Shown: positions 52,451 through 53,060 of the stretch, piece after piece | Numbering within the stretch: the stretch's first letter is position 1 | Layout of the letters: every line of letters begins with the position of its first letter | Assembly (NCBI RefSeq): GCF_000427685.1 | Contig: NZ_KE386573.1 | Coordinates: 2,526,938-2,590,937 of the forward strand | Length of the DNA stretch: 64,000 nucleotides | Direction of reading: 5' to 3' | From: Haloplanus natans DSM 17983 | GTDB lineage: Archaea > Halobacteriota > Halobacteria > Halobacteriales > Haloferacaceae | Made by a program: the position numbers and the translations under genes | The notes under the pieces: generated by a model | Seen by the model: only the letters and a program-made list of their open reading frames with translations | Database searches by the model: none | What the model was told of the DNA's origin: nothing

Positions 52451-53060
52451 GTAAAGGATTGCAGGGCTCAGGGGAACCCAGTGCTTCAACGAGGGTGAGG
52501 TGTCTGCCCACCCTTGTCCCCTGTTAGAGGACAAGGTGTCTACGCACGCCGGTTCTCGGCAGTATTCAGAGCGCACCTTACGAAAGACTCCGTGCGAACT
52601 ATGTTCCTGTTGAAGCAGCTCCCCTGGAGGAATCTGCAAAAGAAGACAGGCAGGAAGTGATCCTGCTTACAGCCACAGATTTTCGCTACTTTAGGGCTCT
52701 GTCCCTGCCCTAGTTCTCCGTGAGACTTTGCGCCTCTGGAATCAAATCAGAGAGTGATTGGATGATAGGAGCGCCAAGCTGCGGCAGGTTCTACCTTACC
52801 TTACGTCATTGCAGCTGTACAATCTCCCGATATTCGTCTCACAGAGCAGGGCGTGTAGAACTAAAGGCCTGAAACACCTTCCTGCCATGCCTCAGGTCCC
52901 TTGTTCGTGAAGTGCGGGAGGGAGAGGAAAGCTGGCTCCCCACTATGACCAGGGTGCTGGGAGGCAGGTAAAAGGTGTGAGGCCTTCAGAATGTGCTCCT
53001 GTCACCACCGAAGCGGTGAGATACCGATCGGTTCCAGGAGACTTCTTCTAACAGTAACTT
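52451..53060 (-). ncRNA. Large structured RNA, about 600 bases, next to tRNA genes
   Basis: No frame longer than a few dozen codons looks real, while perfect stems are dense: 52513-52519/52529-52535, 52650-52655/52661-52666, 52692-52697/52707-52712, 52734-52738/52748-52752, 52808-52811/52820-52823, 52996-53001/53035-53040 with 53006-53010/53014-53018 inside. Long-range GTGAGAC (52720)/GTCTCAC (52836) and GTTCTAC (52788)/GTAGAAC (52855) cross each other, a pseudoknot. A TATA box (ATTTAAAAA, about 53075) fits minus-strand transcription into the tRNAs. The strand is not certain, because the stems exist on both. Confidence 0.6.

Follow-up and report, generated by a model that had tools for sequence, protein, structure and literature searches.

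Evidence for a new structured RNA family of haloarchaeal mobile elements

The RNAs GOLLD and ROOL, found in bacteria and phages, are unexplained. Both occur near tRNAs and on mobile elements, and in both the 3' region is better conserved than the 5' part (PMC12286853). Here we analyze a 64,000-nucleotide stretch (G000:C7:2526938-2590937, hereafter the window) of the 3.8-Mb haloarchaeal genome of Haloplanus natans DSM 17983, in which a sequence-only reading had singled out positions 52451-53060 as a giant ornate RNA resembling GOLLD and ROOL. The interpretation offered in that reading is partly supported: the stretch, which is without convincing protein genes, is probably a non-coding RNA gene on the minus strand, with an archaeal promoter of its own, belonging to an uncatalogued RNA family of haloarchaeal mobile elements.

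A conserved RNA fold on the minus strand

Along the minus strand, an integrase gene is followed by a TATA-like box, a structured region of about 600 nucleotides (nt) and two intron-containing tRNA genes. The RNA as we delimit it, with inferred ends, covers 52453-53050, and its fold, compared with dinucleotide shuffles (20 per strand), gave a z of -5.75 on the minus strand and -2.9 on the plus strand. The structured RNA is encoded on the minus strand; a plus-strand RNA was rejected, given its weaker fold and the minus-strand orientation of the homologues, the tRNAs and the TATA-like box. This box (TTTAAAAA, minus 53079-53072) lies about 25 nt ahead of the inferred 5' end at about 53050 and occurs at the same place in Haloferax sp. 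Q22, G500 and G535, three relatives described below (the equivalents read TATAAAAAT in Q22 and TTTAAAAAT in G500), which bears out the TATA box seen by the sequence-only reading; in all, TATA-like boxes precede the RNA in the window, Q22, G500, G535, G173, G101 and G494, and runs of T follow the 3' strand of the closing helix (P1') in G203 and G494. An open reading frame of 70 codons (c52427-52639) overlaps the locus, but the core lengths of family members (131-155 nt) differ by non-multiples of three, and coding was rejected.

A single good match (G036:C4, E 2.2e-34) came from searching 170 genomes of the host's family at the DNA level: scaffold12 of Haloferax sp. Q22, where the order of integrase, RNA and two tRNA genes is the same as in the window, with an orthologue of the window gene 50310-51260 (67% identity) farther along. 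The two RNAs align over their full length at 59%, and over the 3' 240 nt at 75%. In G173, a genome of another family, the 3' domain stands alone with its own TATA-like box. A covariance model of this domain built from these three sequences (R1), applied to 392 genomes of the order, matched G203 (E 3.4e-11) and G359 (E 1.0e-10), while a direct R1 search gave a 24-bit match in G101, whose element has a protein in common with that of the window. A second model from six sequences (R2), searched against 391 genomes of the class as well as the G173 and G203 families, added G494 (E 8.5e-8), G500 (E 8.4e-21) and G535 (E 4.8e-20), and its independent finds score 41-86 bits. None of these six genomes was in the training set of the model that found it. 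The total is nine full-length members among several hundred haloarchaeal genomes (overlapping draws), so that the family is real but rare, and five of the nine are only about 130-165 nt long, at odds with giant size as a family trait. Weak model matches in G221/G240, G212 and G124 (19-25 bits) were judged to be due to chance.

The conserved 3' core, minus 52483-52617 in the window, is closed by a long helix (P1) around a junction with the motif AGGAA(A)..AG, from which several hairpin arms emerge: a P2-P3-P4 arm and P5 with a CUAA loop, together with a GGCAGACAC strand. The strongly conserved letters include unpaired motifs and comprise AGGAA(A), AG, AGA in the P4 loop, GACAC leading into P5, CUAA in the P5 loop and GGCAGACAC. 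Across an alignment of the nine sequences (44-77% pairwise identity), compensatory double changes were found in 27 of the 35 base pairs, in agreement with the covariation that the sequence-only reading had called for; 86.6% of cells were paired, compared to 40-47% after sliding the partners by one to three columns (about 41% at one column), and the covariation score was 0.651 versus 0.234 in shuffles, none of 500 being as good, all of these figures being somewhat inflated by the fitting of the alignment to the model structure. Free folding of the first three sequences with RNAalifold gave a compact 3' domain of nearly the same structure as the model. R2 scores the window core at 123.5 bits, the window being one of its training sequences. 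The fold has been preserved by evolution across the window and eight other archaeal species, and the existence of a new family of structured RNAs on haloarchaeal mobile elements, with a core of about 130-165 nt, is well supported.

BLAST searches of plasmid and phage collections found no homologue except a truncated remnant in the Natrinema versiforme plasmid pNVE500 (L073 8001-8055), an unannotated 3' piece of a G359-like RNA with 89% identity over 55 nt. Protein and DNA pattern searches of viral contigs found no homologue; a pattern match in a bacteriophage-like contig (L101) had no model match and was ascribed to chance, as were weak matches in HVTV-1 (E >= 0.2), the only ones obtained among the haloviruses HGTV-1, HVTV-1 and HF2. 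Literature searches in openly licensed papers found no description of this RNA.

Long forms, tRNA neighbours and the element

The window, Q22, G500 and G535 form a long subfamily with a 5' extension of about 400-450 nt (about 430 nt in the window, minus 52618-53050), for which a consensus fold was obtained from the four sequences; "giant ornate" is a fitting description of this subgroup only. The long forms split into two subfamilies, window/G500 and Q22/G535, and the G500 and G535 loci keep the order of integrase, RNA and tRNA and have element genes in common with the window. The pseudoknot described by the sequence-only reading survives in one of its two helices. The central helix between GUGAGAC (minus 52842-52836) and GUCUCAC (minus 52726-52720) covaries, with GUGAGAC/GUCUUGC in G500, UUCUCUCAA/UUGAGAGAA in Q22 and CUCAGGUCC/GGACUUGAG in G535, and the pairing persists in all four long forms despite very different sequences. 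For the crossing helix, the letters GTTCTAC/GTAGAAC exist, but 18-37% of shuffles are as complementary and the pairing competes with a covarying local hairpin, so that it was discarded. A hairpin GUACAGCUGCA..GGUAAGGUAGAACCUGCCGCAGCUUGG (minus 52774-52820) is conserved in the four long forms, with two pairs changed from GC to CG between the subfamilies, and a 59-nt block, GACAGAGCCCUAAAGUAGCGAAAAUCUGUGGCUGUAAGCAGGAUCACUUCCUGCCUGUC (minus 52645-52703), is nearly invariant among them. Two further candidates were dropped: a kissing interaction of UGUUAGA at the 5' end with CUAAC of the P5 loop pairs perfectly in the window, less well in Q22 and no longer in G535, and a 16-nt match between the 5' part and 23S rRNA is, by estimate, about what chance would give at such length.

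The tyrosine recombinase/integrase gene directly upstream (minus 53117-53758; PF00589, E 8.8e-24) and the tRNA genes on the other side confirm the gene-free interval recognized by the sequence-only reading. The first tRNA gene (minus 52265-52450, 93-nt intron, assigned by ARAGORN to Leu CAG) begins a few bases past the RNA and the second lies at minus 52038-52198 (64-nt intron, Leu GAG); ARAGORN found both with introns allowed and missed both at default settings. The spacer between them (CAGCCGGAUA..CCGGCUG, minus 52205-52258) is conserved in all four long loci and constitutes a second structured RNA element with a variable interior, also seen at L003 c1320-1415, L092 10000-10098 and L093 10099-10200. 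tRNA genes adjoin the RNA in five loci: they follow it directly in the four long loci, and in G203 an intron-containing tRNA-Val ends 16 nt ahead of it. A minimal copy in G173 (G173:C1:558223-558303) is located within the 107-nt intron of a tRNA gene (L078 c4672-4850; Asn GTT by ARAGORN, although it could be Tyr) in an array of four tRNAs. This copy is without the P2-P4 arm and keeps AGGAAAUUGAG, CGACAC, CUAACUG and GUGUGGCAGAC; taken by itself, its match is weak (27 bits, 5.7e-4 per genome), and it was accepted because of these shared motifs.

The G+C content is about 0.50 in the window compared to 0.60-0.72 in the chromosome to its left, a contrast that places the window within a large low-GC element; on the right it stays at about 0.5 through the end of the fetched sequence. 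The window encodes a HerA-type ATPase, a type I restriction-modification system, a TFIIB-like protein and the tyrosine integrase. No capsid or tail genes were recognized among the scanned proteins, and terminase-like and tail-like profile matches were rejected as virus genes, both belonging to the HerA protein; the window is part of a mobile element, for which we claim no virus status. No gene pointing to an IS110 bridge RNA or a TnpB/IscB omega RNA was noticed among the neighboring open reading frames and Pfam matches seen, although no specific search was made.

Other features of the element recur in its relatives. The block of methyltransferase and type I restriction-modification genes at about 36422-47077 is 84-85% identical in DNA to its counterpart in the G173 element (L077), a likeness broken only at the specificity-subunit region. 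The products of 54289-56193 and 50310-51260, with conserved ends, acidic and repetitive middles and no Pfam domain over the cut-off, are conserved in the RNA-carrying elements of Q22, G500 and G535, with distant counterparts in G173 and, for one of them, also in G101. Also conserved in Q22, G500 and G535 are a 1379-aa protein (c58744-62883) and a 300-aa probable multi-spanning membrane protein (c57837-58739), neither with a PHROGs match and the former also without a Pfam match; the two could possibly belong to a transfer or vesicle apparatus.

Possible function and alternatives

Transcription of the RNA would start at its own promoter and run along the minus strand into the tRNA genes of the element; the 3' end of the RNA would be freed by RNase P trimming of the adjoining tRNA, and the intron copy of G173 would be released by the splicing endonuclease. 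Since the sites of the RNA vary (it precedes tRNA genes, follows one, occupies a tRNA intron, or lies among protein genes that carry TATA boxes of their own), control of one neighboring gene is unlikely, and a role in trans is the more probable one. The core may then bind a component of the host tRNA or translation metabolism to the benefit of the mobile element, a tentative idea that is equally open for GOLLD and ROOL. By analogy with these RNAs, we speculate that the family represents a new tRNA-linked class in which a trans-acting core of about 150 nt occurs alone, in a tRNA intron or extended to about 600 nt, and, by acting on host translation or tRNA metabolism, serves as the archaeal functional equivalent of GOLLD and ROOL.

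Several points weigh against the reading as a tRNA-linked RNA gene of its own. The linkage to tRNA genes is not universal, as G359, G494 and the first G173 copy showed no tRNA in the flanking sequence examined (about 4-12 kb per side), and in G101 the intron-containing tRNAs are about 12 kb from the RNA. The ends and processing of the RNA are predicted from sequence, the 5' extension rests on four sequences in two subfamilies, and the excess of G-U over A-C cells in the core alignment is modest.

Actual membership in GOLLD or ROOL, with assembly into a multimeric RNA cage, would account for the size of about 600 nt, the tRNA neighbors, the mobile element and the conserved 3' and variable 5' parts (PMC12286853). 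No Rfam 15 family reached its threshold anywhere in the window, as expected for the undescribed large RNA beside tRNA genes of a halophilic archaeon that the sequence-only reading had proposed, and when the locus was scanned with cmscan for every Rfam family, allowing E up to 10, it gave three weak matches only, all over the tRNA genes, with none to GOLLD or ROOL, to the signal recognition particle RNA or to archaeal RNase P RNA (RF00373), the host RNase P RNA being encoded elsewhere (G000:C7:102606-103080). The GOLLD model (RF02032) matched none of five carrier genomes at E<=10; the ROOL model (RF03087) gave no match in them either, a search that is weak on its own as control genomes were silent too. 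Together with the short length of five of the nine members, these results make membership very unlikely, and the comparison is retained only for the setting on a mobile element with tRNA neighbors and for the plan of the RNA. On the other hand, the RNA could be a cis-acting leader or processing element of the downstream tRNA operon, needed only for maturing these tRNAs, as its direct continuation into the tRNA genes in four long loci and the second conserved structured spacer between the tRNAs would allow. We consider this unlikely, as in G203 the RNA comes after the tRNA and a T-run lies immediately past it, and in G173 and G101 the RNA stands alone ahead of protein genes with their own TATA-like boxes.

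A structure acting at the DNA level, such as the replication origin of the element or a recombination site, would fit the adjoining integrase and the inverted repeats typical of such sites, but is highly improbable given the prevalence of G-U over A-C cells on the sense strand (29 versus 18), the TATA-like boxes and T-runs, the copy in a tRNA intron and the occurrence of the core away from integrases. The RNA might also divert translation-targeting defences as a decoy, with the invariant block of the 5' extension mimicking the 3' end of 16S rRNA (AAUCUGyGGCUG..GGAUCACyUCC). With the final 50 nt of a haloarchaeal 16S rRNA as the target, the window block gave a better alignment than any of 1000 shuffles, and the other three blocks did less well, with 2-12 of 1000 shuffles as good; the 16S target was nevertheless picked post hoc, the alignment requires a 7-nt insertion, and against the 1.5-kb rRNA the window block alone stands out. 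Moreover, neither the core nor most of the full-length forms resemble rRNA, and the short members are without the block, so that a decoy appears quite unlikely and the likeness to the 16S rRNA end is a lead and not a result.

Comparison with described RNAs

An unrelated archaeal RNA in a setting like that of GOLLD and ROOL suggests that large structured RNAs have more than once joined the tRNAs carried by mobile elements in separate domains of life. The short archaeal forms would provide a minimal core far easier to study than an RNA of 600-800 nt, and the long form of Haloferax sp. Q22 makes the family testable in a genetically tractable genus. The AGGAAA-like motif past the closing helix recalls archaeal RNase P RNA, a likeness that we take to be a lead only. 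The family touches archaeal tRNA introns through the minimal member of G173, whereas the rest of the family lies outside tRNAs, as separate units that have a closing helix of their own and, in most cases, a TATA-like box as well.

With GOLLD, the haloarchaeal RNA shares its place on a mobile element near tRNA genes and the plan of a conserved 3' and a variable 5' part (PMC12286853), but there is no sequence or covariance match, the hosts of GOLLD are bacteria and phages, and many GOLLD members exceed 800 nt whereas the haloarchaeal family has members of about 150 nt. With ROOL, it shares a length of about 600 nt, tRNA islands close by and many stems; however, no covariance match was found, ROOL occurs in bacterial prophages and phages, and a short stand-alone core is undescribed for ROOL in PMC12286853. 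The resemblance to both is one of setting and architecture, and not of ancestry.
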